Positions 1,279 through 35,129 are shown, numbered from the stretch's first letter. The stretch: 64,000 nucleotides of DNA from Candidatus Hadarchaeales archaeon (GCA_038736355.1 JAVYML010000003.1:62001-126000); one strand, 5' to 3'. The notes: generated by a model from the sequence alone, not told the origin. Translations and numbers: made by a program.

Positions 1279-2301
1279 TCAGAGCTTCCAATAGTTGCGC
1301 AGTAAACTCTTGAGCTCCTCCACAGCCTTTACTTCCTTGGGTGGAGGGGGAGGAGGACCCCTTTCCTCCAGCAGGACCTTCACCACTTCCACCACGGCCT
1401 TCCCCATGCTCGAGGGGGCATAGCCACCTTCCAGCACCATCACCACCTTCGCCCCACACCTCTTTGCACCTTCCACGATCATCCCCGTCAGCCAAGCATA
1501 GGAGGAGGGGAGAAGCTCCAGTTGGGTGAGGGGATCCTCTTTCAAGGGATCCAACCCAAGGGAAACCGCTACCATTTCTGGTTTGAATTCTTCCAATAGC
1601 GGGAGGAAAATTCCCTCCATCGCGTAGGCATATTCCCCTTCTCCACTTCCAGGAGGGAGAGGGACGTTTACATTGAATCCCTCTCCTTCACCTTCTCCCA
1701 GTTCGTCTACGAAACCACACCAGGGATAGAGGGTACGGGGATCCTGGTGTAGGGAAAGGAAGAGGACTTCAGGATCGCTGTAGAAAATTTCCTGAGTCCC
1801 GTTTCCATGGTGGGCATCCAAATCTAAGATGAGGGTTTTCCTCAACCCCAAATCTTCCCTCATCCTTTCCACCATTATGGCGATGTTGTTGAAATAGCAG
1901 AAACCTCCTCCAGTACCCCTACCCGCGTGATGTCCTGGAGGTCTCAGAAGGGCAAAGGCATTCTTCCACTTACCAGACTTCACACCCTTTCCTGCCTCAA
2001 GAGCTGCCCCTACCGCTAACTTGGCAATTTCCAGTGTCCCCTTCTTCAGGGGGGTGTCCGAATCCAGTTCCATTTCCCTTTCCTCCATCCTCTCGAGGAG
2101 CTGTAGGTAGGAAGGTTCGTGGACCAGCAGTAAGTCCTCCTCCGTGCAGGGGGAGGGATGGATTACCTTTATTTTGGATGAATACCACCATCCCTCCTTT
2201 TTCAGCGTATCCACGATGGCCCTAAGCCTGCGCGGGGATTCGGGATGGTTTCTGCCAGGATGATGTTTCAGGAATTCCTGCGAGTAAAGGAGGGTGGTCA
2301 A
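1279..2301 (-). CDS. Histone deacetylase family protein (acetylpolyamine/acetoin-utilisation type)
   Basis: This 340-residue protein has the arginase/deacetylase-fold hallmarks: the PGHHAG motif near residues 122-127, DLDAHHGNGT at about 160-169 with the metal-binding Asp and His, a third Asp in the LDPLKEDPL stretch near 250, and the catalytic-Tyr motif LEGGY near the C-terminus. The family removes acetyl groups from lysines or acetylated polyamines using zinc. In an archaeon the substrate may be acetylated chromatin proteins, polyamines or a small molecule; sequence does not say. Its start overlaps the stop of the upstream dph6-like gene by four bases, so the two are probably co-transcribed. 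Confidence 0.88.
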   Translation of the reverse strand: MTTLLYSQEFLKHHPGRNHPESPRRLRAIVDTLKKEGWWYSSKIKVIHPSPCTEEDLLLVHEPSYLQLLERMEEREMELDSDTPLKKGTLEIAKLAVGAALEAGKGVKSGKWKNAFALLRPPGHHAGRGTGGGFCYFNNIAIMVERMREDLGLRKTLILDLDAHHGNGTQEIFYSDPEVLFLSLHQDPRTLYPWCGFVDELGEGEGEGFNVNVPLPPGSGEGEYAYAMEGIFLPLLEEFKPEMVAVSLGLDPLKEDPLTQLELLPSSYAWLTGMIVEGAKRCGAKVVMVLEGGYAPSSMGKAVVEVVKVLLEERGPPPPPPKEVKAVEELKSLLRNYWKL

Positions 2302-2966
2302 ATTATCCTAGCCTCCTCTATGAGGAGATAGCCACTGCTCCCCTTCCATATCTTCCTGGCCCTAACGATTTCGATCCTGCGTTTGGAAAAAGGGGAGGAA
2401 AGAACGAAGGTTTCGTATTCTCCCCCCTCCCCCACAGGATCAAAACCGTATCTCGAGCTCTTCTCCAGCAGCTCCTCCACACTCCTTTCATCCAACTTCC
2501 TCCCAAGCCACTCCTCCCCCAATCCCTCGGCCGAAACGGAGGTTATCATCACCTCGAAACCCTCTTCGAGGAGTTCTCTCAGGAGGGAAGGGCGACTCTC
2601 CCCCCAAAGGGGATGGAGGGCCTTGATTCCCAGTCTCCTACAGATTTCGTCCACCCTCTTGCGCTGGTAGTTGGAGGCCACCGCCCCACTCACTATTCCC
2701 TCCACTTCGAGACCCCTTAATACCTCTTCCAGTTCCTCCATCTCCTTTTCCTTTTCCCCGGAGCTTTCCACCCCTAGGAAGGGAAAACCGGCACATTCGG
2801 CGAAGAGTCCGGCCAACCTAGCGTTGGGATAGTGGAAGAGCCAAGAATCCTCCCTGCGGGGAAAGAGGGTGACCACCTTCTCTATCCTGTGACCTTCCTT
2901 TACCACCCTCCACATCGCAAGGGCCGAATCCTTTCCTCCGGAGCAGAGGGCAGCAAGCCTCATCAT
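2298..2966 (-). CDS. dph6: Diphthine--ammonia ligase (Dph6-type PP-loop ATPase)
   Basis: The 222-residue protein opens with the PP-loop motif SGGKDS at residues 9-14, which binds ATP for adenylation. It ends with the family signature GEGGEYET at about 179-186. This combination defines the Dph6/MJ0570 family, which performs the last, ATP-dependent amidation of diphthine to diphthamide on elongation factor 2. Length is normal. It is the first gene of a two-gene minus-strand operon with the HDAC-family gene. Assignment to diphthamide synthesis follows from the family; other diphthamide genes are not in this window. Confidence 0.85.
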   Translation of the reverse strand: MMRLAALCSGGKDSALAMWRVVKEGHRIEKVVTLFPRREDSWLFHYPNARLAGLFAECAGFPFLGVESSGEKEKEMEELEEVLRGLEVEGIVSGAVASNYQRKRVDEICRRLGIKALHPLWGESRPSLLRELLEEGFEVMITSVSAEGLGEEWLGRKLDERSVEELLEKSSRYGFDPVGEGGEYETFVLSSPFSKRRIEIVRARKIWKGSSGYLLIEEARII

Positions 2967-2996
2967 TCCTTTTTTATCGGATGGAGTAAATTCTCT

Positions 2997-3320
2997 GTGT
3001 CCCTCAGGCTCCCTCTAGCCCTTTGTCTGGTCTTCGTGGGTTCCTTCCTACTCTTGGAAGCCTCCACCCCCCTTCCCTCCTCCTTTTTGGATTTCTCCCT
3101 TCTTTGCCTGGCCCTGGCTTCCATCCTCTCAGGCTTTCTCCTGGTGGAGCCTTCCTCTCAACTTTTTCCCTGCCTCCTAGTAGGTTTGGGATTTTCCCTC
3201 CTCCTCCAAAGGGAAAAGGAAAACTTTTCGGAGGCAAACGAATGGATCTTTTTGATCCTCTCCTTTCTCCTCTTTTTCTTGGCTATCTTCTCTTACAAAC
3301 TCCTAAGGCCGAGGAAATAG
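2997..3320 (+). CDS. Small four-helix membrane protein, unknown function
   Basis: A GTG at 2997 starts a 107-residue protein with about four hydrophobic segments (roughly residues 5-22, 30-48, 53-70 and 83-102) and a basic C-terminal tail. A GGATGGAG element lies about ten bases upstream. The same frame is open further upstream to 2832, but that part runs antisense to dph6 and looks non-coding, so I place the start after it. It overlaps the end of the convergent TctA-like gene by 28 bases. I do not recognise a family. Confidence 0.55.
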   Translation: MSLRLPLALCLVFVGSFLLLEASTPLPSSFLDFSLLCLALASILSGFLLVEPSSQLFPCLLVGLGFSLLLQREKENFSEANEWIFLILSFLLFFLAIFSYKLLRPRK

Positions 3321-4483
3321 AGCGTACAGGGAAGGAGGATTACCCCCATTCCGTGGGATCTCCTTACTCCCACCCTTCCAGGGAGAAGGCCTATGGCAGT
3401 GGCCGTGAAGAGGAGGGGTAAACCGATTGGACCACAGAGGAAAAGGGTGAGGAAAAGGATGAAGAAGAAAATGGAAAGGCAGAGGATCCTGTAGGGAACT
3501 TTTGAGATTTTGGAGAAAACCAGCCTTCCCAGGGGAAGGACCAAGAGGGTGGAGAGAGCACCAGCCAGCAATGCCACGCCTAGAAGGGAGAGGAGTTCTC
3601 CCCTTCCCATCTCTAGGAGCTCCCCCACTGCTATCGCTGCTCCACTCCTAGGTTTGCCTATGGCGTAGAGGGCCACGAAGGAAAAGAGTACCTTCACCAT
3701 GTTGACCACGCTCACCGAGAAGAGGAAGTCCTCCACCCTCTTCGAGCGGGTGAGTAGCTGGGAGAGCACCGTTCCCTCGGCGGGCCCTATTCCTGGAAGG
3801 AAGCCCGTGAAGATTCCGGCCCCCACTCCCGAGAGGAGGGGTGGAAGGGAAGGTCTGAATTCCCCTTCTACTTTCTGTTCTGGTAGCTTCTTTCTCGAGG
3901 CAAGACTCTCCAGCATCACGCTAGTTCCGAAGAGTCCGGTTAGGAGGGGCATGAGTACCTTGCCACCCAGGTCGAGCGTGAGCAAACCGAGGGCTCCGGA
4001 GAGAAGAAAAATGAGGAGGGACCAGAGCATGCGGTATAGGCTCCCTTCCGAGAGGATCATCAGGAGGATCACGGCAAGCAAGATCCATCCAATGAGCGGA
4101 TTCAAGAGCGCATAGATTCTTCCAAAGATTTCCGCTAGGAGCAGGGCGAAGAGCACGCCCATGAAGAGACCCCAGAGACAACCGGTAGTTGTGATTTTCA
4201 GGGAGAGATAACCCTTTCCTTCCAGCACCATTCTGTGGGAGGGGAGCACGGAAAGGGCAGTACCCTCTTCAGGAACTCCAAGGAAGGTTGAGGGAAGGTA
4301 ACTGATGAAGGTTTGTACTACCGCCATGGTAACGACAACCATGGCCCCAGCGAGGGGTGGAAAGTGAAGGGAAAGGATAAGGAGGGGTATTAAGGGGGTA
4401 AGGTTGTTCACGTGTATACCCGGAAGGAGCCCGGCGAAAATCCCGAGCCCCATCCCCAGCAAGAAGCACAAAAGAAATTCCAT
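3293..4483 (-). CDS. TctA-like membrane permease
   Basis: This 396-residue protein is highly hydrophobic, with about ten to twelve membrane segments arranged as two related halves. Each half begins with a G-LPGI-type motif (GLLPGI near residue 20 and GFLPGI near residue 225), a feature of the TctA family of tripartite tricarboxylate transporter permeases. Archaeal members are often solitary. No periplasmic TctC or small TctB partner is seen nearby, so the substrate and even the transport mode are unknown. It is probably co-transcribed with the upstream OB-fold gene (2-base gap). Confidence 0.75.
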   Translation of the reverse strand: MEFLLCFLLGMGLGIFAGLLPGIHVNNLTPLIPLLILSLHFPPLAGAMVVVTMAVVQTFISYLPSTFLGVPEEGTALSVLPSHRMVLEGKGYLSLKITTTGCLWGLFMGVLFALLLAEIFGRIYALLNPLIGWILLAVILLMILSEGSLYRMLWSLLIFLLSGALGLLTLDLGGKVLMPLLTGLFGTSVMLESLASRKKLPEQKVEGEFRPSLPPLLSGVGAGIFTGFLPGIGPAEGTVLSQLLTRSKRVEDFLFSVSVVNMVKVLFSFVALYAIGKPRSGAAIAVGELLEMGRGELLSLLGVALLAGALSTLLVLPLGRLVFSKISKVPYRILCLSIFFFILFLTLFLCGPIGLPLLFTATAIGLLPGRVGVRRSHGMGVILLPCTLYFLGLRSL

Positions 4484-4485
4484 TG

Positions 4486-5115
4486 TTAGTAGAAGTACAG
4501 ATGGGTGTTCCTTTTCACCACTACTTCCAGTTTTCCTCGGTAAAGCTGTACCCTTCCAGCCGCCACGATCCTCTCTCCCACCTTCACCCCGATGCTGAAG
4601 GGAAGGAAGATACTGAGTTCTTCCCCATCCTCTTCTAGGGTTAGGAGGAGGAAGTTCTCTCCCACCTTCGTTACTTCCTTCACCCTACCCTCTACCTTTA
4701 CTAGCTTCCCCACTTCTTCCTTCCCTATTTCACCAACCCTGCGTGGAGCTTCCCTTTTGATCCTGATATCTCCAGGCTTGCTTGGGACCACTTCGAGCTC
4801 CCCCTTCCATTCCTTAACCTTTCCCCTCACTTCCACCCAATCCAGCAACTCTATTCTCTTCTCCATTCCTTTCCTCACCCCTGCGAAAAGGGGAACGGAA
4901 ACGGTAAGGTTCTCCTCCCCCACTTTCAGGAAGAGATGTCCATCGGGATGCTCACTCAAGTCCATCACCCTTCCGGAGAGGAGGACCGTACTCCCCAACC
5001 TTTCCTTGGTGAGGGAGGAAACCTCAAGCCTTTCCGGTTCGGAGAGCCTGAACCCCAGGTAAATCAGGAGAAGTCCCATGACCGCACAGATCAAGATCAA
5101 CTTTTCCGTTTTCAT
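4486..5115 (-). CDS. Membrane-anchored double OB-fold protein
   Basis: The 209-residue protein has one N-terminal hydrophobic segment (about residues 5-22) followed by two repeats that look like OB folds (about 38-118 and 128-209). Each contains a beta-rich pattern of V-G-V or V-E-G-R-V followed by a hydrophobic strand and a GxxWxGxxLEV or YRGKLEVV ending. OB folds bind single-stranded nucleic acid or oligosaccharide; with a signal anchor this one probably acts outside the membrane or at its face. It shares the intergenic region 5116-5167 with the divergent transglutaminase gene and precedes the TctA-like gene. Confidence 0.7.
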   Translation of the reverse strand: MKTEKLILICAVMGLLLIYLGFRLSEPERLEVSSLTKERLGSTVLLSGRVMDLSEHPDGHLFLKVGEENLTVSVPLFAGVRKGMEKRIELLDWVEVRGKVKEWKGELEVVPSKPGDIRIKREAPRRVGEIGKEEVGKLVKVEGRVKEVTKVGENFLLLTLEEDGEELSIFLPFSIGVKVGERIVAAGRVQLYRGKLEVVVKRNTHLYFY

Positions 5116-5167: not shown

Positions 5168-6487
5168 ATGAACAGGTGGATTTGTCCCCTTCTCTCCTCC
5201 CTCCTTCTTCTTTTCCTCCTTCCTCCCTCCTTCGCCGGTTCTTCTGTCTATTCCTTCCAAGCCACCTACAGGCTCACCAACACCAGTTCCTCCGAAGTAG
5301 AGGGTTGGCTAGAGGTCTTTGCCTTTGACAACGAGAACTTCGGGTGGGATTTCCAAGTGGTACTGGAAGAGAACTTCTCTCCCATGCCGCAAGAGTTTCG
5401 CGGGGAGGATAATAGGATCTTGAAGTTCCTTTTGGGAAAGCTTCCTCCAGGAAGTTGGAAGGAGGTCCGCCTAATCCAGCTCCTGAGGGTGAAAGGAAGG
5501 AAGTGGGAAAGGCTGGAGGGGGAGGGGGAAATCCCACAAGAGCTCCTGAAGTTCACGGTCCCCGTCCCGAACCTCTGGGAGGATGCTCCGGAGTTGAAGG
5601 AGAAGGCGGAGGAGTTGAGGGGGGAAACCCCCTATTTGACCGCCAAGAACCTCTTCGAGTTCGTGAAAAACCATCTGAGTTATGTCAAATGGGCTCAGGA
5701 TCAGAGTGCCCTTCAGGCCTATCGAAGCCGTGTGGGAAAGTGTACGGAGTTCACCAACCTCTTCATTGCGCTGGCTAGGCTCTCCGGTCTTCCCGCCAAG
5801 TTCCTAGCTGGATATGGCTACAACTCCAAGCTGGGTGAAAACGCCGAGGAAATGGGGCATGCCTTTGCAATCCTGTACCTCCCGGGTGTGGGATGGGTGC
5901 CGGTGGACGAGACTTGGATGGGAGGACAGTTTGGGGAACTGGGGGAGGATCATCTCATCCTCTTCTCCAGCGATGGTTCCAATTTGGTAAAGAACGGAAG
6001 GGTGAGCATTCCGGGTGAGAAATGGAGTGGGGGAACGAAGCTGGAAAAATTCCTCTACCTTTACAGGGAGGCAGCGGTGGAAGCGGACCTGAAGAGAGGG
6101 GGACTGGAGAATGGAAAAATAGCAGTGATGGTAACTCTGAGAAATACTGGCAGGAGCATTCTCGAAGATCTAACCGTGCGCTTGGAAGTGGAGGAGGACT
6201 CTTTCCGTCCCGTGGCCCCACAGATGGTGAAGAGGCTGTCTCCCAGGGAGGAGGTGGAGGTGGATTTCTACTTGGAGCCCTTGAGGGGAGCGGAGAATTC
6301 TCCCTTGAGGGCAGAGGTATGGGCCCGCAGCCCCTATGGGGAGGTTTCCTCGGAGAGCACCATGTTCCTTACGGTGGTTATCGAACCCGCACCTTCCCCA
6401 CTCCCTCTGCCCTCCGAGCTCCTTCTATCCGCGGTAGCAGGGTTAGTGGTGGTAGTAGTCCTGATCCTTCTCCTCAAACGCCGCTGA
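5168..6487 (+). CDS. Secreted, membrane-anchored transglutaminase-like protein
   Basis: This 439-residue protein starts with a signal peptide (about residues 6-23, ending near SFAGS) and ends with a hydrophobic segment (about 415-435) and a short RR tail, so its body should face outside. The middle carries the transglutaminase/protease core: Cys192 in GKCTEF, His231 in GHAFAI and Asp247 in PVDETW form the expected triad. The region after about 300 resembles a beta-sandwich domain (LRNTGRSILEDLTV). The family hydrolyses or cross-links peptides; the natural substrate is unknown. It leads the operon with the secretion ATPase, so it may process or cross-link a surface filament. Confidence 0.82.
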   Translation: MNRWICPLLSSLLLLFLLPPSFAGSSVYSFQATYRLTNTSSSEVEGWLEVFAFDNENFGWDFQVVLEENFSPMPQEFRGEDNRILKFLLGKLPPGSWKEVRLIQLLRVKGRKWERLEGEGEIPQELLKFTVPVPNLWEDAPELKEKAEELRGETPYLTAKNLFEFVKNHLSYVKWAQDQSALQAYRSRVGKCTEFTNLFIALARLSGLPAKFLAGYGYNSKLGENAEEMGHAFAILYLPGVGWVPVDETWMGGQFGELGEDHLILFSSDGSNLVKNGRVSIPGEKWSGGTKLEKFLYLYREAAVEADLKRGGLENGKIAVMVTLRNTGRSILEDLTVRLEVEEDSFRPVAPQMVKRLSPREEVEVDFYLEPLRGAENSPLRAEVWARSPYGEVSSESTMFLTVVIEPAPSPLPLPSELLLSAVAGLVVVVVLILLLKRR

Positions 6488-6495
6488 TTTCTCCG

Positions 6496-6504
6496 TTTTA
6501 AAAT
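6496..6504 (+). promoter_or_regulatory. TATA-like box before the 51-residue gene
   Basis: The run ttttaaaat is centred 27 bases before the ATG at 6527. No Shine-Dalgarno sequence precedes that ATG, so a leaderless transcript beginning at the start codon is the simplest reading. It supports the small gene as real and suggests the secretion genes have a promoter separate from the transglutaminase gene. Confidence 0.5.
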
Positions 6505-6526
6505 TCCTCCATCTCAAACAACTCCG

Positions 6527-6682
6527 ATGGGTTCGCTCCCCTTTCTTCTCCTCCTAGCGGTCCTTTGGTATCTTTTCGTCTGGCAGAAGGGAAAGCTGGT
6601 AGAAAGAAGGAACGACCTCTTACAGGCCCTACGAAGGGTGGAGGAGGATCTGCGCAGGGCCTTGGAGGGAGAGCATGCATGA
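6527..6682 (+). CDS. Small single-pass membrane protein with coiled-coil tail
   Basis: An ATG at 6527 opens a 51-residue protein: a hydrophobic helix (about residues 3-18), then a charged amphipathic helix rich in Arg, Glu and Leu. It overlaps the next gene by eight bases (stop at 6682, next ATG at 6675), which is typical of translationally coupled genes here. A TATA-like box sits 27 bases upstream. The shape recalls small inner-membrane partners of type IV filament machines, but I recognise no family. Confidence 0.6.
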   Translation: MGSLPFLLLLAVLWYLFVWQKGKLVERRNDLLQALRRVEEDLRRALEGEHA

Positions 6683-7217
6683 GGAACTTTTGAGAAGGGT
6701 GGAAAAGTTGGCGGGGGAGGAAAGGCTTTCTCCATCTTTCTTTGATGGGATTCTGGAACTGCTTTTGGAAATAAGGTCCAGACCTTCCCTTAGCTCCGAT
6801 CCGGAGATAGCATCGGTTCTCCAGTGGATGGAGGAACTGAGCTTCAGGCTGAAGGATTCCGATAGGGGTTGCAGGTCTGGCTTTCTCAGGGAGGAGTGGA
6901 GGAGGATTAGGATTTACGAGTTCAGGAGGTTGAAGGAGGGTCTCTCAGTGTTGGAAAAAAGGTTGAGGGAACGTCTACGAGGAGACCCTCCCTTGGAGCT
7001 GAGAAGGTTGGTGGAAGAAATGAGGGAGGAGGGCGCGATAAGGGAAACCACTTGGGCCCTCCTGCTTTCCTCCCCTTGGGGTAAGAGGGAAATGGAAAGG
7101 AGGGAAGTGAAGGAAGCCCTCCTCAGGGTCCTGCGCCTCTTCTCGGAGTTTAGGGAGTTGAGGAGGGAAAACCGTGGGATGGAGAAAAAAGACTTCGGTG
7201 CTGGTGGAGCACGGTAG
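6675..7217 (+). CDS. Helical charged protein of unknown function in secretion operon
   Basis: The 180-residue product is almost entirely predicted helix, very rich in Arg, Glu and Leu, with no signal peptide, membrane segment or recognisable motif. It overlaps the preceding 51-residue gene and is overlapped by the following 44-residue coiled-coil gene. The tight coupling to the secretion ATPase gene suggests a cytoplasmic accessory factor or adaptor. Strand purine bias and amino acid use match its neighbours, so I take it as a real gene. Confidence 0.65.
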   Translation: MHEELLRRVEKLAGEERLSPSFFDGILELLLEIRSRPSLSSDPEIASVLQWMEELSFRLKDSDRGCRSGFLREEWRRIRIYEFRRLKEGLSVLEKRLRERLRGDPPLELRRLVEEMREEGAIRETTWALLLSSPWGKREMERREVKEALLRVLRLFSEFRELRRENRGMEKKDFGAGGAR

Positions 7218-7332
7218 ATGGATTTCTCAACTCCTCAACGACTTCAGGGTGTTGGAGCAGCGCTTGGAGCACTTGGAAAAAAGGGTTGGAATGCTGGAGG
7301 AGTGTCTCCGCCGTCTTTTGGAGGGAAAATGA
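7198..7332 (+). CDS. Tiny coiled-coil protein upstream of secretion ATPase
   Basis: A GTG at 7198 opens a 44-residue protein ending at the TGA 7330-7332, immediately before the ATPase start at 7333. Residues from about 16 onward form a heptad-like pattern (VLEQRLEHLEKRVGMLEEC), which predicts a coiled coil. It overlaps the end of the 180-residue gene by 20 bases. No frame here has a better claim: an alternative reading from 7218 overlaps the ATPase gene for over 130 bases and looks random. Short length keeps confidence moderate; a start at GTG 7204 is also possible. Confidence 0.45.
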   Translation: MLVEHGRWISQLLNDFRVLEQRLEHLEKRVGMLEECLRRLLEGK

Positions 7333-9465
7333 TTGGTTTGTGGTTTCAGGATCCTGAGATTTGGCAGGAAGAGGGTTCTGCGCTTCGAATGCGAAACCTG
7401 TGGGGAGAGTGCAGATCCGGGGCTCTCCAGCAAGTGCATGGAGGGCTTGCTTCGGGGACTGGCTGATTGCCCCGAGGTAGAAGAGGTACAGTTTCCCGGA
7501 GCCTACGAGAAGGAATATGCGGGGGAAGAACTGAAGGGTCTGAAAAAGCTAGCTTTTCTCCTTTTCGACTGGGAACTCAGAGCAATGATGAAAACTTGTG
7601 TGGGATGTGGAAGATGCGAGGGGGAGAGGAAGAACCTCCTCTCTTCTCTTTCCTCCCGTCTTTCCCTTTCTCCCCTTCAGGCCAAGGAGAAATTGAGGGG
7701 TTTTCTCGGGGAGATGGAGGCCCTATCCAAAGGGGGAAGTGGGAAATGCAGGGAATGCCGTTCCTTCTTCCTAAAGGAGTTCTTGCGCCCCATGTGGGAA
7801 GAACTGAGAAAAACTTGTGAGGAGGTCTTCAGGGAGGGAAGGCTTGCCGGGCCCAAACTCCGCCCTTCTTTCATGTTCTCCAAGCTGAGGATGGATCCTC
7901 CACTTGGCTCGGAGCCTGTAGAGGAATACAGCTTGCCAGGAGGAAAGGTGAAAATTTACAGATATCCTCCCACTTCTCAGTTCCTCTACTTCCTCTTTCC
8001 CAACGAGTGTTTTCTTCCTCCGGACTTCGTGAGGCTTCTCCACGAGCTCAGGGAAAACCTCTTCCGGGATCCTCCTTCTTTAGAGGGTGACAGGGAAGTT
8101 CTGGAGGAAAAGATCAGGAGACTGTCGGCGAAGAGGATAGCGGAGGAGATGGGGAGGAGGGGTTGGAGGACTGGAAAGGAAGAGATATACCGTCTTTCGG
8201 AGTCCCTGACCAGGTTTACCGTGGGTTTTGGAGTGCTGGAACTCCTTTTCTCGGACGAGAAGGTCCAAGATATCTATCTGGATGCCCCACCCGGAGAGAC
8301 CCCCATTCACCTTTACCATCAGGATTTCGAGGAGTGTCTCACGAACGTTTATCCTTCGGAGGAGGAAGCGGAGCTTTTGGTTTCAAGGTTGAGGGCCCTA
8401 AGCGGCAGACCCTTTTCCGAGGCTGATCCCGTACTGGAGGCAGAGCTTGGGGAAGTGAGGATTACGGCTATAGGACCTCCCCTCAGCCCGGAAGGAAAGG
8501 CCTTTTCCTTCAGGAAACACCGCTCCTCTCCCTGGACCCTCCCCCAGTTTGTGAAAATGGGTTTTCTCGATTCTTCCACGGCTTCTCTCCTTAGCCTCTT
8601 AGTGGATGCACAGGCTTCCCTTCTCCTGACGGGTACGAGGGGCTCGGGCAAGACTTCCCTCCTCACGAGTCTCCTCTTCGAACTTCCTCCCAAGTTGAGG
8701 ATTCTCCTGCTCGAGGACACGGCCGAGCTTCCCTCTGCCTTTCTTCGCGCGTTGGGATTCAAGGTACAGACTCTTCGCATACGTTCACCGATAGGTAGAA
8801 CAGAAGTTGAACCCTCTGCGGAGGAGGCCCTGCGGACCGCCCTTAGGCTCGGAGAATCCGTGTTGGTGGTGGGAGAAGTAAGGGGCCCCGAGGCCAGAAC
8901 CCTCTTCGAAGCGATGAGGGTGGGGGCGGCGGGGAACTGCGTGATGGGAACCATCCACGGGGCCAATGCGCGGGAAGTCTTCGAGAGGGTGGTTCATGAC
9001 TTGGGAGTGCAGCCCTCTTCTTTCATGGCCGTGGATGCCGTGGTGTCAACTGCTCCCATCAGGCCCCTCGGAGGGATGAAGAAGAGGAGGAAGGTAGTGC
9101 AGGTGGCGGAGGTGGTGAAGGGGAAGGAGGGAGAGTTCAGGGAACTGGTGAGGTATGAGGTGGGGAGGGATAGATTCGTAATGAAGGGATGGAAGGCCTC
9201 AGAGCTCCTTCGTTCCGTGGCGAGGAAGTGGGGAATGGATCTCCGTACTCTCCTGTCCTATTGGAGGTTGAAGGAGAAGCTTCTCAGAACGCTCGTGGAG
9301 GCGAGTTCGAGGAAGGGGAGACCGGAGCTTCTGGAGGCTAGGTTCCTCTTCCGCTCCAATCAGAGGTTTAGGCTGCTTTGGGAGGAAGAAGTGGAGGGGG
9401 GAAGGCCCCTTCCCGAGAGAGTGGAAAAGAGGTGGAAGGAATGGTTGAGAAAAGCAGTCGAGTGA
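7333..9465 (+). CDS. Type II/IV secretion (archaeal pilus/archaellum-type) ATPase with Cys-rich N-terminus
   Basis: This 710-residue protein belongs to the GspE/TadA/FlaI ATPase superfamily, which powers assembly of type IV filaments. Walker A is GTRGSGKTS at about 434-442, the Asp box is LLLEDTAEL near 462, Walker B lies around VVGEVRGPEA, and the His box is GTIHGANAREV near 540. The N-terminal 150 residues hold cysteine pairs (C20/C23, C35, C46; C89/C92/C95; C139/C142) that look metal-binding. The TTG start at 7333 is chosen because GGAGG ends eight bases upstream and the previous stop adjoins it. The platform protein gene overlaps its 3' end. Confidence 0.88.
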   Translation: MVCGFRILRFGRKRVLRFECETCGESADPGLSSKCMEGLLRGLADCPEVEEVQFPGAYEKEYAGEELKGLKKLAFLLFDWELRAMMKTCVGCGRCEGERKNLLSSLSSRLSLSPLQAKEKLRGFLGEMEALSKGGSGKCRECRSFFLKEFLRPMWEELRKTCEEVFREGRLAGPKLRPSFMFSKLRMDPPLGSEPVEEYSLPGGKVKIYRYPPTSQFLYFLFPNECFLPPDFVRLLHELRENLFRDPPSLEGDREVLEEKIRRLSAKRIAEEMGRRGWRTGKEEIYRLSESLTRFTVGFGVLELLFSDEKVQDIYLDAPPGETPIHLYHQDFEECLTNVYPSEEEAELLVSRLRALSGRPFSEADPVLEAELGEVRITAIGPPLSPEGKAFSFRKHRSSPWTLPQFVKMGFLDSSTASLLSLLVDAQASLLLTGTRGSGKTSLLTSLLFELPPKLRILLLEDTAELPSAFLRALGFKVQTLRIRSPIGRTEVEPSAEEALRTALRLGESVLVVGEVRGPEARTLFEAMRVGAAGNCVMGTIHGANAREVFERVVHDLGVQPSSFMAVDAVVSTAPIRPLGGMKKRRKVVQVAEVVKGKEGEFRELVRYEVGRDRFVMKGWKASELLRSVARKWGMDLRTLLSYWRLKEKLLRTLVEASSRKGRPELLEARFLFRSNQRFRLLWEEEVEGGRPLPERVEKRWKEWLRKAVE

Positions 9466-11060
9466 ATTTTTTCATCCGCTCTTGCAGATGGGCAGGCAAG
9501 TGGTTGGGTAAGCGGTGGAAGGAAGATACTGAATTGGAAGAGAGTTTGAGGTTCCTAAGGTGGGAAATAGGGATGGGGGAAGTGAAGGCTTTTGCCCTCC
9601 TTTCCTCCCTCCTTTCCCTGCTTCCCCTTTTCCTTCTCTTACTCCTTTCCCCGAAGTTCCTCCCCCTCCTCCTTCTTCCTCCCTTGGTTTATTGGTGGGT
9701 TAGGACCCACCCCATTAGGCAGATGGAGAAGGAAAGGGAGAGGGGAAGGGGGGAAGTACCCAGGCTCCTGTGTGCCCTTTCTTCTTCCCTCCTCTTGAAT
9801 CCCAACTTGGAAGTAGCCGTGTCCTTTGCAGCGGAAAATGCGGAGGGGAAGATGGGACCAGAACTGAAGAGGGAACTCTCCAATTTTTTTCTGGGGATTC
9901 ATAAGGGGGCGGAGGAAGTCCTTAGAAGGTTCTCGGAGAGGTGGGGAAATCCCCCAGAGCTCTCCAAGCCTCTTCCCCTCCTCCTAGCTTCGGTGAAGAT
10001 GGGGGAGGAAGACAGGAGAAAGGCCTTGGAGCAGGCGCTGGAAACTTCTCTCGAAGAAGTGAGGGAGAGGTTGAGGAGTTTTCTGGGGTGGGTGAAGCTT
10101 CCCCTTTTCCTCCTCTATTCCTTCGGGGTAGTGCTCCCCCTTTGTCTCCTCACCTTGGTTCCGGTTTTGGGTTCCACGGGTCTCCTTTCCAGTCCCCTCC
10201 CTCTAGTCATGCTCTACGGCTTTCTTCTTCCTTCAACACTCTATCTCCTGAGCTCTTGGATTCTTTCCAAGCGTCCCCTCTTCTCATCTCCACACGATTC
10301 GCCGTCGGCTGGAATATTCTTCTTCCTTTTACCCCTCCCCCTTCTCTTTCCCCTCTTCCGTTCGCTTCCCCCCTCCGAGCCAGGGGTGTTGGGTTTTCTT
10401 TGGTTGGTAGTCCTCCTCCTTTCCCTCTACTTCCTCTCCAAGCGGGATGGGGGAGAACACCTCCGCTCGCTGGAAATGGAGGAGGATTTTCCAGGATTCC
10501 TACAAGAGCTGGGAAGTAGGTTGAGGGAAGGCAGACCGATGGAGGAAGCATTGAGAAGGGCAAGCGAGAACAGGGGGAAGCTTTGGGAGAGATGGGAGGA
10601 TTCACCTTCTAGGCTAGTAAAGGGTACTCTTTTCCTCCTTCTCGGGTTGGCAGAACGCAGCGAGAGGGCGACTGGAGAGGCAGCCCTGCAGCTTTCTTCC
10701 CATTTGAGAAAGTTGAGGGAGGTAGAGCGTTGGGGGAGGCAGGAACTGGCGGAGATTTCTTCTTCCATGCGTTCTATGGCCCTCTTCTTTTCACCCCTGA
10801 TCATCTCCTTGACCTGTCAGATGTACTCCGTTCTCTGGAAGAGGGGAATGGGTTTCTTACCCAGCTTCCTTCCCCCTCCCCTTCTCCTCTTCTTACTTGG
10901 TAGCTACCAGCTGATCCTTACCCTTTTCCTCCTCCACCTCCTTTCAGAAATGGAAGGAACGGAAAGGGGAACCCTTTTCGCTTCCGGTCTTCCCCTCTCC
11001 CTTTCGATGTTTACCCTGGGTACAATAGGTGGTGGGGCCTTCTTGAGTTTTCTCACCTAA
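9441..11060 (+). CDS. TadC/FlaJ-like type II secretion platform membrane protein
   Basis: The 539-residue product contains two copies of a T2SSF-like unit, each a cytoplasmic helical part followed by hydrophobic segments (membrane regions near residues 48-80, 205-275, 290-350 and 445-535). The second unit has the conserved look of the family around FLQELGSRLREGRPMEEAL. Such proteins form the membrane platform on which the partner ATPase works during pilus, archaellum or secretion-filament assembly. ATG 9441 lies 24 bases inside the ATPase gene and has GGTGG upstream; the frame is open earlier but that part is antisense-like and lacks family features. Confidence 0.82.
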   Translation: MVEKSSRVNFFIRSCRWAGKWLGKRWKEDTELEESLRFLRWEIGMGEVKAFALLSSLLSLLPLFLLLLLSPKFLPLLLLPPLVYWWVRTHPIRQMEKERERGRGEVPRLLCALSSSLLLNPNLEVAVSFAAENAEGKMGPELKRELSNFFLGIHKGAEEVLRRFSERWGNPPELSKPLPLLLASVKMGEEDRRKALEQALETSLEEVRERLRSFLGWVKLPLFLLYSFGVVLPLCLLTLVPVLGSTGLLSSPLPLVMLYGFLLPSTLYLLSSWILSKRPLFSSPHDSPSAGIFFFLLPLPLLFPLFRSLPPSEPGVLGFLWLVVLLLSLYFLSKRDGGEHLRSLEMEEDFPGFLQELGSRLREGRPMEEALRRASENRGKLWERWEDSPSRLVKGTLFLLLGLAERSERATGEAALQLSSHLRKLREVERWGRQELAEISSSMRSMALFFSPLIISLTCQMYSVLWKRGMGFLPSFLPPPLLLFLLGSYQLILTLFLLHLLSEMEGTERGTLFASGLPLSLSMFTLGTIGGGAFLSFLT

Positions 11061-15744: not shown

Positions 15745-16340
15745 ATAGAGATAGTTGAAGTGCCAAACAGCCCATATCGGGTTACGTATAACATCGAGCA
15801 TGGCTACAGAGTTTTAGAGTTTCTGGAAGCGTATGGGCTGATGCTCCGGAGGGCGATAGACGAGATATGGGATAGGATTGGGTGGGTTGAGAAATTCGGT
15901 GGATCTGGGGAACGCAGATCCTTCCGATCATACCCAAAGATGGAGCGTTCAAGAACCATTATCTGAGGGATCCGTTGATGAAGGATTGGACCTACCCAAA
16001 GCACTACGTCGACTCGGCTATTAAGCAGGCATACAGGGCAGAGACTTCATCCATAAGCCAACGACTTTTCTCTCCGGGGAATACGAGCAGAAGGTGCTCC
16101 AGATGTGGGATGATCAATGCTCCGAAGGGAGCGAAATACGAATGCAGGGGATGCGGGTTAAGGATCGATAGGCAGCTCAACGCTGCCATAAACCTGTACC
16201 TTCAGATGGAGGGAGCTTTCTCCGGGCAGGAAGCTCTTCAACGGGCTGATGAAGGCCTGGAGCGTTCACCCTGAGGGGAGGCCGATGAGGGTTCCTATGA
16301 ACTCGTGAGGGGTCCCAGGCTGGTGAACCCCAAGAGCTGC
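15745..16340 (+). pseudogene. Degenerate TnpB (IS200/IS605-type OrfB) remnant with large internal deletion
   Basis: The 5' part (15745-15940) encodes the TnpB N-terminus (PNSPYRVTYNIEHGYRVLEF). After a frameshift near 15900-15940 the other frame continues as PKDGAFKNHYLRDPLMKDW and KHYVDSAIKQAYR. The sequence then jumps directly to the C-terminal zinc finger and last RuvC motif: CSRCG at about 16098, YECRGCGLRIDRQLNAAINLY up to 16205. A third frame carries the tail ELVRGPRLVNPKSC to 16340. A normal TnpB is about 400 residues; here the central wedge and most of the RuvC domain are gone. It cannot encode an active nuclease. No TnpA gene is present. Confidence 0.8.
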
Positions 16341-31213: not shown

Positions 31214-31304
31214 TAGCGGGGGGAGGACTTGAACCTCCGACCTCCGGGTTTCCCCGCAGAAAACTTATGAGCCCGGCGGGCACTCCACGCTGCCCTACCC
31301 CGCT
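31214..31304 (-). tRNA. Initiator tRNA-Met (CAT) with 16-base intron
   Basis: The minus strand folds as a cloverleaf: acceptor AGCGGGG/CCCCGCT, D arm GGGC...GCCC, anticodon stem CCGGG/CCCGG, T arm GGAGG/CCTCC with TTCAAGT. The loop reads CTCATA-A with anticodon CAT at 31267-31269. Acceptor start AG and the three G:C pairs of the anticodon stem identify the archaeal initiator. Sixteen bases (31250-31265) interrupt positions 37/38, the canonical archaeal intron site. CCA is not encoded. A TATA-like ctttatcc lies about 27 bases upstream on the minus strand. Confidence 0.9.
31250..31265 (-). other. Intron in initiator tRNA-Met
   Basis: Removing these 16 bases (minus strand agttttctgcggggaa) restores the seven-base anticodon loop CTCATAA next to the CCCGG stem. 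A GTTTTC/GGAAAC pairing around the loop TGCGG is compatible with a splice-endonuclease substrate. The exact cut could be shifted by one base because of repeated A residues. Confidence 0.75.
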
Positions 31305-31377: not shown

Positions 31378-31680
31378 ATGGGAGGAGTGGCAGTATCCGA
31401 CCTCATAAGATCGATGATGAGGATGGGGTTTTCGAGGGAGGAAATTTATGAAGTACTGGCTGGTGCGGGTGTCTTTGGGGAGGAGATCCACCTCCTCATA
31501 GAGCACGTGGGTGCAGAATTCGGAGAGGCTGGATTGGAGACCCGTCCATCCCATTTGGCCCTTGAGCTCATCCGCTGGCTGAAACCTGAGCTCGAAGCTT
31601 TAAGCAGGGAGATGAATTTTCGTTTCGATCTTCTCCTTCGCGAACTGAGAAAAGGTTCAAGAAAAAACAGAAAAGGGTAG
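31378..31680 (+). CDS. Small helical protein, unknown function
   Basis: This 100-residue protein is predicted helical, with no membrane segment; the middle (GFSREEIYEVLAGAGVFGEEIHLL) looks like a small helical or UBA-like bundle and the end is strongly basic. Start could be ATG 31378 or the GTG at 31390 after GGGAGGAG. It converges with the pilin-like operon and overlaps its last gene by 24 bases. I do not recognise a family. Confidence 0.5.
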   Translation: MGGVAVSDLIRSMMRMGFSREEIYEVLAGAGVFGEEIHLLIEHVGAEFGEAGLETRPSHLALELIRWLKPELEALSREMNFRFDLLLRELRKGSRKNRKG

Positions 31681-33183
31681 GGGACTGAAGACGATTACTC
31701 TTGCTTCGAACTTCCGCTTGGGTATCTCGAAGCGATAGGAAAGGGGTACCCTGGCATGGACTCCCGGAAGGAGGAGAGTGGGATAGGGATGATCCACGAT
31801 TTCCTCCACGGGTTCCCTTTCCAGGATTACCTCCGTTCTCCACTGGGCCCACCATATCCTCACTCCCAAGAAGGGTAAGGGGATGGGGGTAGCAGAGGAA
31901 AGTCCACAAAGACCCAGAGGATCCTCACGCTGGAATCTCACCCCTTTTATTTCCAACTCTCTGAAGACGGAGAGCTTTGGATCTTCCTTCGAAGGGAAGT
32001 TCAGGAGATCGCCCACAGGGAGGGGAGCGGCTATCCTTTCGAACTCCTCCACGGCCCCTCTTAGCAGCAAGAGAAGCGACCGATCTTCTCGGTTTTCTTC
32101 AAAACTTTCCCCAGCGAGGAGGGAAAGACATTCTTCGAGGGAAAGCGTGGAACAGTTCTCCCCCTCCTTTTCTTCCAGACGGAGGAGGGATTTCAATTCC
32201 GTGAGTTTCCAGTGAAGTTCCGGCAAGAAGGAATCTGAAAGCATCCTCACGAGGGGATCCTCCGATCCTTCTACCATTGATTGGAGTTCTTTCCACTTCC
32301 CTTCCAAATCCTCCAGTTTTTCCATCACTTTTTTCCCTTCCACAGGTATCGAATTCCCAAGATTTTTCTTCAGTTCTAGGTAGAGGTGTTCCACACCGTC
32401 CCTCATCGTACGGAGGTGGAGTAGAACTTCCCTCCTCGAGGCCAGAGAGGGAAAAGAATGAAGGGGGAAATAACAAGAGCCAAAGGACTTCAGCTCATGG
32501 GCGGACCAGGCAGCCAAGAAGCTTTTTTCGACGAAGGAGGGGGAAAGCTCTATCCTTCCCGAAAGGACCTGCGGCCAGGCATACAGATATTGAGTAACCC
32601 CCCACAGCCCTTCCATTTCTCCCAGATGCTCCAAGAAAAAACAGGCCCTTTCCTGCAAGAGGAAGAACCTTGAGTCCACGAAAACTTCCAATTCCTCGAG
32701 GGGGAGGAGGAGGGAGGAAGAACGGTCGGGGGAAGTGACGGAAAGGATGCTCGCTGGCATCCTCACCTTCAGAAGACAGAATCCGTTTTCTAGGGGTGAG
32801 AGGGTAAAGTCAACCTCCTTTCCTCCCAAAAAGAGAAGGCGTTCGTCGGTATGCGAGTAAAGGGGAGGAAGGGAGGGAAGGAAGGAAAGGAAGAGGGTTT
32901 CGGCGAGATTTTCCACGGCTTCCTTTCTCCTCTCTCCCGTCCCATAGGAAGTTTCCCTTCCCACCTCCCACAGGGCCTGATAGGTGGCATACCTGCACAG
33001 GTCCTCTAGGTCCTTTCTCACATTGGTACCCGCCACCAAGAGTTCGAGGAGGGAAACCTCCTGTAGGGAGAAGGAGGACCTGAGGTGTTCCAGTCTCAAA
33101 ACTTGGAGGGAAAGGGTGAGGGAGAGAAAGAGGAGCAGGAGGGCGGAAGCGGTGAGGGGAAAGAAGCCCTTCAGGGGGACCAC
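31657..33183 (-). CDS. Large pilin-like/membrane-anchored surface protein
   Basis: The 508-residue protein has one hydrophobic helix (about residues 9-30) following a short positive N-terminus, then a long extracytoplasmic body. The body contains a helical, charged central part (about 270-330, MRDGVEHLYLELKKNL) and a beta-rich C-terminus. Cysteines at 63, 150, 194, 252 and others could form disulfides. It is the last gene of a six-gene operon whose members all begin with a similar hydrophobic helix. The arrangement resembles archaeal minor-pilin clusters (for example the haloarchaeal DUF7286-type large pilin), but I cannot assign a family by eye. Confidence 0.65.
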   Translation of the reverse strand: MVPLKGFFPLTASALLLLFLSLTLSLQVLRLEHLRSSFSLQEVSLLELLVAGTNVRKDLEDLCRYATYQALWEVGRETSYGTGERRKEAVENLAETLFLSFLPSLPPLYSHTDERLLFLGGKEVDFTLSPLENGFCLLKVRMPASILSVTSPDRSSSLLLPLEELEVFVDSRFFLLQERACFFLEHLGEMEGLWGVTQYLYAWPQVLSGRIELSPSFVEKSFLAAWSAHELKSFGSCYFPLHSFPSLASRREVLLHLRTMRDGVEHLYLELKKNLGNSIPVEGKKVMEKLEDLEGKWKELQSMVEGSEDPLVRMLSDSFLPELHWKLTELKSLLRLEEKEGENCSTLSLEECLSLLAGESFEENREDRSLLLLLRGAVEEFERIAAPLPVGDLLNFPSKEDPKLSVFRELEIKGVRFQREDPLGLCGLSSATPIPLPFLGVRIWWAQWRTEVILEREPVEEIVDHPYPTLLLPGVHARVPLSYRFEIPKRKFEARVIVFSPLPFSVFS

Positions 33184-33632
33184 AGCTCCAGTCTCATTTC
33201 CACCCTACCCACTTCTGGAGGGGGAAGGGTGCGGTGGAGGAGGGTTGAATAGACCCTTTTTCCCCTTCTCTTCGAGGTGGAAAGTTCCAACAAAACAGTC
33301 CGTTGGTGGGGTCTCAGGACTTCTACCCTCAAAACACAGGCCCATTTCCCTTCACACAGTTTCCTCAGGGAATTCTCGAGTCTTTTCCCCACTTCTTCCT
33401 CTCCCACCACGGCTTCTTCCGTCAACATCCCCAACAGGGGTTTGTATCTCCATCCTCCCTTCACTTCCAGTGAGTCGAGGGTGATGGACTGAAGGGCGAG
33501 TGCTAGGTGGGAGCCAAAGGAGGAAGCCACCCTCTCCTCCCGGATGGGTGGAGAGGAGTGGAGGTAAAGACAGGCAGCGGAGACGAGGAGGGAGAAGAGC
33601 ATAAGGTCCAAGATGGAGGTCATTCCCTTCAT
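33171..33632 (-). CDS. Pilin-like protein (153 residues)
   Basis: ATG 33632 overlaps the stop of the preceding gene (TGATG). The frame is open far upstream to 34511, but that part is antisense-like and rich in Pro/Arg, so I start here. The protein begins MKGMTSILDLMLF with a hydrophobic helix at about residues 7-24, then a globular domain of mixed strands and helices with two cysteines (93, 99). It overlaps the 508-residue gene by 13 bases. Minor pilin-like by shape and context only. Confidence 0.6.
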   Translation of the reverse strand: MKGMTSILDLMLFSLLVSAACLYLHSSPPIREERVASSFGSHLALALQSITLDSLEVKGGWRYKPLLGMLTEEAVVGEEEVGKRLENSLRKLCEGKWACVLRVEVLRPHQRTVLLELSTSKRRGKRVYSTLLHRTLPPPEVGRVEMRLELWSP

Positions 33633-33943
33633 CACCAAGCCCCCACTTCCACCAGGAAGGAAGAGAAACCCCTTTTCAGGGCCGTAGGGAGCATCACGGT
33701 TTTGAACCTTGGCGGTTTTTCTTTCCCTCCTACTCTCCCTTCGTTCCCCCAGATTTCTATTCCTTCCAAGTTTTCTGGTAGTTCCAAGAGACCGGGTTCT
33801 TTCCAGAGGAGGTGGAGGACCCTCTCGGTTTTCCTCACCTCTTCCTCCAAATCGTCCCCCTTGTTTTGCAGGAAGGAAAAAAGGGAATGGAGAAAGGAGG
33901 AGAGCAAAAGGAGCACCACCAACCAAGCACAGAGCTCTTCCAT
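33632..33943 (-). CDS. Pilin-like protein (103 residues)
   Basis: The short protein has an acidic residue pair right before its hydrophobic helix (MEELCAWLVVLLLLSSFLH), as in type IV pilins where Glu5 follows the processing site, and then a small charged domain. It sits 3 bases after the upstream gene and overlaps the next one. No clear prepilin peptidase cleavage motif is visible. Function inferred from operon position. Confidence 0.55.
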   Translation of the reverse strand: MEELCAWLVVLLLLSSFLHSLFSFLQNKGDDLEEEVRKTERVLHLLWKEPGLLELPENLEGIEIWGNEGRVGGKEKPPRFKTVMLPTALKRGFSSFLVEVGAW

Positions 33944-33946
33944 TTC

Positions 33947-34348
33947 CTACCTCCTTTCGAGGATGAGGGAGTTCTCCCGTTTGATCACCGCGAAGAGACA
34001 GGGATTCGAGAAGGCTTCTTCGAAGGATCCGTTCTCTATCGGTAGGGGGAGGAGGGAAGAAAGGAGAAGCTTTCCTCCAGACCAAATTTCCAACAACTGT
34101 TTTCCATTGCTCATCCTGCCCTTGAGCTTCAGCTCCTCTTTTATGGGAAGGAGTATTTCCACCCTTCCCTCTCCCGGTAGAAGGGATACCATCTCCAGGA
34201 CCCCCATCATACCCTGGGCTATCCCAACCGCTTCCTCGGTTTTTTCCCTCTCTAGGACGGAGGAGAGGTTTAAGCAGAAGGTGAAGAGGAGCATGGAAGC
34301 CAGAGCGGCTGCAGTTCTGGAGGAGAGGAAGAGGAATAATCCTCCCAT
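33947..34348 (-). CDS. Pilin-like protein (133 residues)
   Basis: An ATG at 34348 starts a protein with a hydrophobic helix at about residues 10-30 (TAAALASMLLFTFCLNLSSV) and a following charged helix and beta-rich tail. AGGAGAAAGG lies about 15 bases upstream. It belongs to the minus-strand six-gene pilin-like operon. No known family recognised. Confidence 0.55.
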   Translation of the reverse strand: MGGLFLFLSSRTAAALASMLLFTFCLNLSSVLEREKTEEAVGIAQGMMGVLEMVSLLPGEGRVEILLPIKEELKLKGRMSNGKQLLEIWSGGKLLLSSLLPLPIENGSFEEAFSNPCLFAVIKRENSLILERR

Positions 34349-34372
34349 CCCTTTGCTTGGTTCCTTTCTCCT

Positions 34373-34750
34373 TTAAGAGCGGGAAAGGGGGAACACGAAG
34401 ATCTTGGGCCCTTCCCGCAATTTCAGCAAGTATCTTCCTTCCCTCAAAGAGCAGTGGGGGAAAAGGGGAAGGGCGGGTATTCCTTCCCCGATCTTCTCTC
34501 CCCTCAGCCACAGCTCTATCTTTTCTCCCAAGAGGAGCTCACCCCTTCCAAGCTCGAGCTCTACTTCCCTCTCGCTACCGATGGAAGAGAGGGCTAGAGC
34601 CTTCACCTCTTGGAGAAAAAGTTCTAGGGCTAACCTTGCCCTTTCCCTTTCTTCCCTTTCTCCCATCCTTTCCATCCAGGCCAGTCCCAGGGAGAGGGTG
34701 GAGAGGGCGAGAAAGAGACTGAGGAGGATTACGACGGGAAAGGATTCCAT
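34373..34750 (-). CDS. Pilin-like protein (125 residues)
   Basis: ATG 34750 gives a protein starting MESFPVVILLSLFLAL, a short acidic N-terminus with a hydrophobic helix (about residues 5-24), an Arg/Glu-rich helix (about 28-55) and a beta-rich C-terminus. The frame extends to 34795, but this adds only a basic stretch inside the previous gene. The stop of the previous gene at 34755 lies four bases before this start, fitting co-translation. Confidence 0.55.
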   Translation of the reverse strand: MESFPVVILLSLFLALSTLSLGLAWMERMGEREERERARLALELFLQEVKALALSSIGSEREVELELGRGELLLGEKIELWLRGEKIGEGIPALPLFPHCSLREGRYLLKLREGPKIFVFPLSRS

Positions 34751-34754
34751 TTTC

Positions 34755-35129
34755 CTACTCCACCGCCACCTGTCCTTCCCAAGGAAGGTAACCATGATGA
34801 GTTACCTTTACCCTAGCCAAGTAAGGAGTTCCGCTGGTGGGTAGGCGGAAGGTGTAGGTGTTAGAGGAAGAACCGAGGGTATGGATCTTAGTACCTCCCG
34901 GATACTTCACTTCCACAGTGGCACCGTTTAGCGGTTGTCCTGTTTCTGCATCGAAAATGCTCACTTGTAAGGATCCCCCACCCTTGTAGGAAAGTAATAC
35001 CCTCATGTCTCTCCACATCATCCTTTCGGAGACGTTCACGAACTGGGTCAGGACCCCCATGGAGATAGCCCCTACTGCCAAGGCTATCACGAGCTTGATG
35101 GGTATGTCCATTGCCCCTCTCTCGTCCAT
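34755..35129 (-). CDS. Type IV pilin-like protein with Ig/carboxypeptidase-regulatory-like domain
   Basis: The 124-residue first gene of the operon begins DERGAMDIPIKLVIALAVG, a pattern seen in archaeal pilin-like proteins: a charged leader, a Gly-Ala junction and then a long hydrophobic helix (about residues 9-32). The C-terminal part is a beta-sandwich of the carboxypeptidase regulatory or peg type (SIFDAETGQPLNGATVEVKY and VKVTHHGYLPWEG). It may be the main exported subunit. The promoter should lie in 35130-35300. Confidence 0.65.
   Translation of the reverse strand: MDERGAMDIPIKLVIALAVGAISMGVLTQFVNVSERMMWRDMRVLLSYKGGGSLQVSIFDAETGQPLNGATVEVKYPGGTKIHTLGSSSNTYTFRLPTSGTPYLARVKVTHHGYLPWEGQVAVE

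Follow-up and report, generated by a model that had tools for sequence, protein, structure and literature searches.

In archaella, small membrane and coiled-coil partners are encoded beside the motor, as is the case at the locus described here, and for most archaeal pili no set of cytosolic motor partners is defined. Among archaeal type IV pili (T4P), subclade 4F comprises ATPases with variable cysteine-rich N-termini, has an intracellular coiled-coil component and includes nanoarchaeal members (Makarova, Koonin, Albers 2016, PMC4858521). The window, i.e. the whole stretch of 64,000 nucleotides analysed here (G000:C3:62001-126000), carries six genes on its plus strand, all of which were confirmed at the coordinates below. 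It derives from the 1.27 Mb genome of a deep-subsurface archaeon, the closest named relatives of which are Hadesarchaea MAGs and Ca. Hadarchaeum, placing it in the Hadarchaeota.

5168 to 6487, plus strand: TGase, transglutaminase-like protein of 439 residues, secreted and membrane-anchored (PF01841); considered a neighbour, not a component
6527 to 6682, plus strand: p51, 51 residues, single transmembrane segment and cytosolic helical tail (alignment of 16 orthologues)
6675 to 7217, plus strand: p180, all-helical, cytosolic (alignment of 17)
7174 to 7332, plus strand: p52, short coiled coil of 52 residues, GTG start (alignment of 15)
7333 to 9465, plus strand: pilus assembly ATPase of 710 residues, N-terminal Cys domain (~1-186) and FlaI/GspE-like motor (PF00437)
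~9441 to 11060, plus strand: platform, FlaJ/TadC-like, ~539 residues (PF00482, sub-threshold)

The reading frames of p51 and p180, of p180 and p52 and of ATPase and platform overlap, the ATPase starts directly at the p52 stop codon, and 40 bp separate the end of the TGase from the start of p51 in the source genome. Compared with the relative G002, p51, p180, p52, the ATPase and the TGase are under purifying selection with dN values of 0.19-0.34 and dS being at least 1.2 or saturated, and because the proteins are conserved and dN lies well below dS we regard p51, p180 and p52 as genuine genes. The order p51-p180-p52-ATPase-platform, without the TGase, recurs across Hadarchaeota genomes, which bears out the preliminary description in that the small helical genes are real and travel with the motor; of the six genes whose recurrence was to be checked, these five keep their order, whereas the six-gene order including the TGase is limited to the home genus (three genomes). 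The coiled-coil gene, described there with 44 residues, is real but more likely encodes 52 residues from a GTG at 7174, the shorter form corresponding to an internal GTG at 7198; its G002 counterpart has 56 residues and aligns with the 52-residue form. For the platform, a start at 9441 (539 residues) is more probable than one at the first TTG at 9378. Scanning for sigma-70 promoters and terminators returned sites no commoner than in shuffled sequence, the sigma-70 model not covering archaeal promoters.

The ATPase belongs to the VirB11/GspE family (PF00437, E 1.4e-23, above the cut-off) and contains a canonical, intact Walker A motif (GTRGSGKTS). In its AlphaFold (AF2) model (pLDDT 87, built from 31 sequences) residues ~187-709 match FlaI with Z 35 and A. 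fulgidus GspE (AfGspE) with Z 34, residues 1-186 constituting an extra domain of ~185 residues outside this match. This N-terminal domain has cysteines at positions 3, 20, 23, 35, 92, 95, 139 and 142; almost all of them are conserved in Hadarchaeota, in other archaea they are retained in part, and the CxxC spacing suggests metal binding. Scores lie below the cut-offs for both the archaellum ATPase equivalog NF058587 (126.8 bits, cut-off 550) and the TadA family TIGR03819 (149 bits, cut-off 373). A tree of motor cores, with Haloterrigena on a long branch and named 4F reference sequences not among the tips, unites the Hadarchaeota ATPases including that of the window with those of Hydrothermarchaeum, Thermoplasmata, DPANN and a Haloterrigena plasmid in one clade (100/99), separate from FlaI, AfGspE, CpaF and two further motors of the source genome. 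The platform matches PF00482 below threshold (E 8.5e-4); in almost all loci with orthologues it lies 3' of the ATPase, homology and position are conserved in relatives, and the platforms of complete relatives have 8-10 transmembrane segments. ATPase and platform are a T4P motor pair, in agreement with their earlier assignment as type IV filament parts, and the genome encodes one prepilin peptidase (PF01478 at G000:C1:34174-34515). Haloarchaeal plasmids, namely pHTUR04 of Haloterrigena (L252) and one of Haloterrigena sp. KLK7 (L253), encode a related pair of ATPase and platform, with a pilin-like gene on the other strand.

We consider it likely that the locus is the motor operon of a Hadarchaeota T4P, in which p51, p180 and p52 would form a collar, the pilins would be those encoded at 31.7-35.1 kb of the window, a UBA-like protein would act as a partner and the TGase would be a bystander. 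Our literature search returned neither an experiment on any Hadarchaeota pilus nor papers on Hadarchaeota pili.

Several further pilus motors are encoded in the genome. A second long pilus-type ATPase with its own platform (G000:C2:355926-358394; L098:7924-10398, minus strand) is a divergent paralogue, its cysteines being arranged similarly; its Walker A motif is degenerate in all 17 orthologues read among L282-L301, being GE[VM]G[ST]AKTS instead of GxxGxGKTS. Both motors are present in 19 genomes, either one alone in two each and neither in four (p = 0.011), a test limited by the incompleteness of the metagenome-assembled genomes and by shared ancestry. These sequences may point to a distinct pilus subtype with two matched motors, i.e. 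an active pair with the p51/p180/p52 collar and a degenerate, non-hydrolysing one serving as regulator, brake or retraction aid, an extension of the model that we hold possible but doubtful. The conserved degenerate second motor bears on the control or retraction of archaeal pili, which to our knowledge lack PilT. Another pilus ATPase, at G000:C1:26800-32900 (L095:4843-10914, minus strand), is encoded in a frame of 2023 residues in which the T2SSE matches are split into three separate pieces, a pattern that suggests inteins; two short platform-like genes come next and the prepilin peptidase lies close by. At C2:52 kb (L097) lies a PIN-KH-like ATPase that we did not count among the pilus genes.

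Within the window, 20 kb from the motor, a six-gene pilin operon occupies the minus strand (31657-35129) and is accompanied by a convergent gene for a UBA-like protein (31378-31680).

34755 to 35129, minus strand: pilin-like protein of 124 residues, class III-type N-terminus (RG/AMDIPIKLVIAL...; PIKLVIAL-type), CarboxypepD_reg-like domain; 19 of 27 genomes
34373 to 34750, minus strand: small pilin-like gene 2; order conserved in relatives
33947 to 34348, minus strand: small pilin-like gene 3; read from the sequence, size and position match relatives
33632 to 33943, minus strand: small pilin-like gene 4; order conserved in relatives
33171 to 33632, minus strand: small pilin-like gene 5; order conserved in relatives
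31657 to 33183, minus strand: large pilin-like protein of 508 residues, up to ~740 in relatives; 20 of 27 genomes, operon order conserved
31378 to 31680, plus strand: UBA-like helical protein with coiled tail; sub-threshold UBA matches, 20 of 27 genomes

By eye, pilin N-termini such as MEEKGQLMGVPIKLVMALVIG and MDERGAMDIPIKLVIAL fit class III signal peptides. The operon order is kept across Hadarchaeota and, for its pilin part, in Hydrothermarchaeum profundi (L315:8728-15052); the 124-residue protein has homologues in Hydrothermarchaeum and, as judged by eye, one beside the ATPase in Haloterrigena pHTUR04. Since pilins and motor are 20 kb apart, usually lie on separate contigs in relatives and share the genome with several other motors, we paired them by co-occurrence: 18 genomes have both, three the motor alone, one the pilins alone and five neither (p = 0.004, not corrected for shared ancestry). 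The genome G003, 94% complete, is devoid of motor, p180, pilins and UBA-like gene and retains the TGase; in G006 pilins are present without the motor, possibly due to an assembly gap. The UBA-like gene always accompanies the large pilin (20/27 genomes), and the top twelve matches of its HMM are the UBA+coiled-coil genes beside DPANN ATPases (hhalign 91%). Being located beside the pilins in Hadarchaeota and beside ATPase and coiled coil in DPANN, the UBA-like protein bridges both loci. The six-gene operon thus probably encodes the cognate pilins of the window motor, a link that the preliminary description had not drawn. That the motor instead serves other pilins, e.g. a stand-alone PilA, or secretes non-pilins, the 31.7-35.1 kb operon belonging to another motor, gains some plausibility from the number of motors in the genome, but the co-occurrence of pilins and motor, the bridging UBA-like protein and the pilin that accompanies the related Haloterrigena ATPase make this unlikely. 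A tRNA gene of ~91 nt, possibly intron-containing, lies next to these genes at 31214-31304 on the minus strand (Rfam 51 bits, missed by ARAGORN), and a fragment at 15975-16274 of the window resembles, by eye, the zinc ribbon at the C-terminus of TnpB/OrfB-type transposon proteins.

The preliminary description had made the transglutaminase part of a six-gene filament or secretion system, in which it would trim or cross-link the exported filament. The protein has a Transglut_core domain (PF01841, E 2.7e-18) with an intact Cys-His-Asp triad (C192, H231, D247), a signal peptide and, by eye, one C-terminal transmembrane segment, features that put it on the cell surface. In each of the three g1 genomes (the home genus) it adjoins p51, and other transglutaminase-family surface proteins were linked to clade 1 pili, including those of methanogens, or to pili of Methanomicrobiales, where they were suggested to take part in the processing of pilins (PMC4858521). 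The distribution of the TGase speaks against such a function here: homologues occur in 25 of the 27 genomes, namely in 19 of the 21 with the motor and in all six without it, among them G003, G015 and G026, which have neither motor nor pilins, so that there is no co-occurrence (Fisher p = 1), and adjacency to p51 is found in g1 only. In other genera the gene is unlinked from the motor; its neighbours there are either OB209, TctA, Dph6 and an HDAC-like gene or a proteasome beta gene. The same OB209/TctA/Dph6/HDAC-like block precedes the TGase in the window (1279-5115), arguing that the TGase is an older resident of this block, next to which the motor operon probably came to lie by chance. On co-occurrence and synteny we reject it as a component of the pilus system and consider the filament-processing reading very unlikely; judged from these patterns, the TGase is a separate cell-surface protein that neighbours the motor in one genus, a bystander illustrating that gene adjacency alone can mislead.

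The pilus motor operon is accordingly discussed from here on as the five genes without the TGase. p180 is present in 21 of the 27 genomes of the order, exactly those having the ATPase, and lies upstream of the ATPase in all 21, in one case split by a contig end. Two short weak matches, one in G015 and a second one in G022, were set aside, and full-length p180 is absent from motor-free genomes. Searched with a p180 profile, none of 318 genomes from beyond the order gave a match, sequence comparison with Pfam, NCBIfam and PDB returned nothing credible, and comparison with the UBA and coiled-coil genes of DPANN revealed no similarity; in this sampling p180 is specific to Hadarchaeota as far as sequence comparison reaches. 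Its AF2 model (pLDDT 82) is all-helical with an N-terminal four-helix bundle, the best fold matches being talin, vinculin and FAK-like four-helix bundles at Z ~12, the level of any helical bundle. Genes resembling p51, encoding a transmembrane segment and a helical tail in 51-116 residues, precede p180 in relatives; p51 evolves fast, as seen in the alignment of 16 orthologues, has no convincing family match in Pfam or NCBIfam and is apparently order-specific like p180. The motor operon of Ca. Hydrothermarchaeum profundi (L108:7026-11229, plus strand) encodes a MinD-like protein, proteins of 88 and 229 residues, a coiled coil of 84 residues, ATPase and platform, and thus has the layout of the window operon with helical genes at the p51 and p180 positions, homology not being demonstrable. 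The 229-residue protein was rejected as a p180 homologue, being alike by eye (DWxxF...) with an hmmsearch E of 0.98 and 0.1% in hhalign, and the similarity of the 88-residue protein to p51 was not supported either. That p51 and p180 are unrelated cytosolic genes co-transcribed for convenience and not motor parts, as the lack of homologues or an informative fold and the fast evolution of p51 might suggest, is highly improbable given the overlapping frames, the strict co-retention with the ATPase in 21 genomes of three families and the restriction of full-length p180 to genomes with a motor.

For p52 the search of a profile against 80 ATPase loci gave as best non-Hadarchaeal matches mainly ATPase-adjacent coiled coils of DPANN and Hydrothermarchaeum, and hhalign gave 80% against these coiled coils versus 15% against control coiled coils. 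Nine of 15 p52 family members show a weak, sub-threshold match to Pfam DUF7310, a family for which we found no papers; since DUF7310 matches in 394 archaeal genomes are spread over unrelated coiled coils, this match by itself is weak evidence and serves as a lead. p52 may be related to the coiled coils beside the same ATPase type in other archaea. The small genes are unfamiliar in part: for p180 and p51 none of the archaellum and pilus families tested gave a match, whereas p52, with its weak resemblance to ATPase-adjacent coiled coils and its weak DUF7310 link, is probably not unfamiliar.

In the pilus motor model favoured here, the ATPase would form a hexamer hydrolysing ATP beneath the membrane platform, and pilins processed by the prepilin peptidase would be lifted out of the membrane into the filament. 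p51 as membrane anchor with a cytosolic helix, p180 as helical bundle and p52 as coiled coil may together surround ATPase and platform as a cytosolic collar or adaptor, a role that we infer from gene position only and that would, by analogy, be comparable to that of ArlX/ArlC-E in archaella; the UBA-like protein might be a further motor partner or adaptor. Against this model stand the structure of p180, which is a generic helical bundle only, and the dependence of the p52 links on coiled-coil profiles, which are prone to false matches. With p180 and apparently p51 being locked to the motor, and with coiled coil and UBA-like protein recurring beside the same motor type in distant archaea, these proteins are candidates for the collar or adaptor that is so far missing in pili other than archaella.

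Compared to the archaellum motor (ArlI/ArlJ with ArlX, ArlC/D/E and ArlH), the window operon shares the ATPase fold with Z 35 to FlaI but differs in the ATPase being under the equivalog score (126.8/550 bits) and having the extra N-terminal domain; the ArlH and ArlC/D/E/F/G families gave no match among the operon genes and the tested neighbours. Among the EppA-dependent clade 1 pili, which occur in methanogens and Thermococci, some lineages have linked transglutaminase-family surface proteins, whereas in the present case such a link is limited to a single genus and neither EppA nor a second platform is present at the window locus. DPANN loci of the same ATPase type share the homologous ATPase N-terminus, the platform, the adjacent coiled coil and the UBA-like protein; they differ in having a coiled coil of ~120-150 residues, UBA-like and coiled-coil parts being fused (200-320 residues), and extra genes with five transmembrane segments, and in lacking p180. 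The window operon is placed near subclade 4F T4P by its features and a partial tree: the VirB11-family ATPase with an extra cysteine-rich N-terminus and the TadC/FlaJ platform are the same, p52, by weak profile links, may correspond to the coiled-coil partner of 4F (arCOG07564), the euryarchaeal-type pilins are alike, and the range of 4F includes haloarchaea and nanoarchaea. Distinct from 4F are the addition of p51 and p180, which our searches recovered in Hadarchaeota only, and the unlinked pilin operon. The combination of an ATPase with cysteine-rich N-terminus and a coiled-coil partner having already been described for subclade 4F (PMC4858521), the operon does not represent the undescribed system proposed earlier but is a variant of a described archaeal T4P class with order-specific parts.
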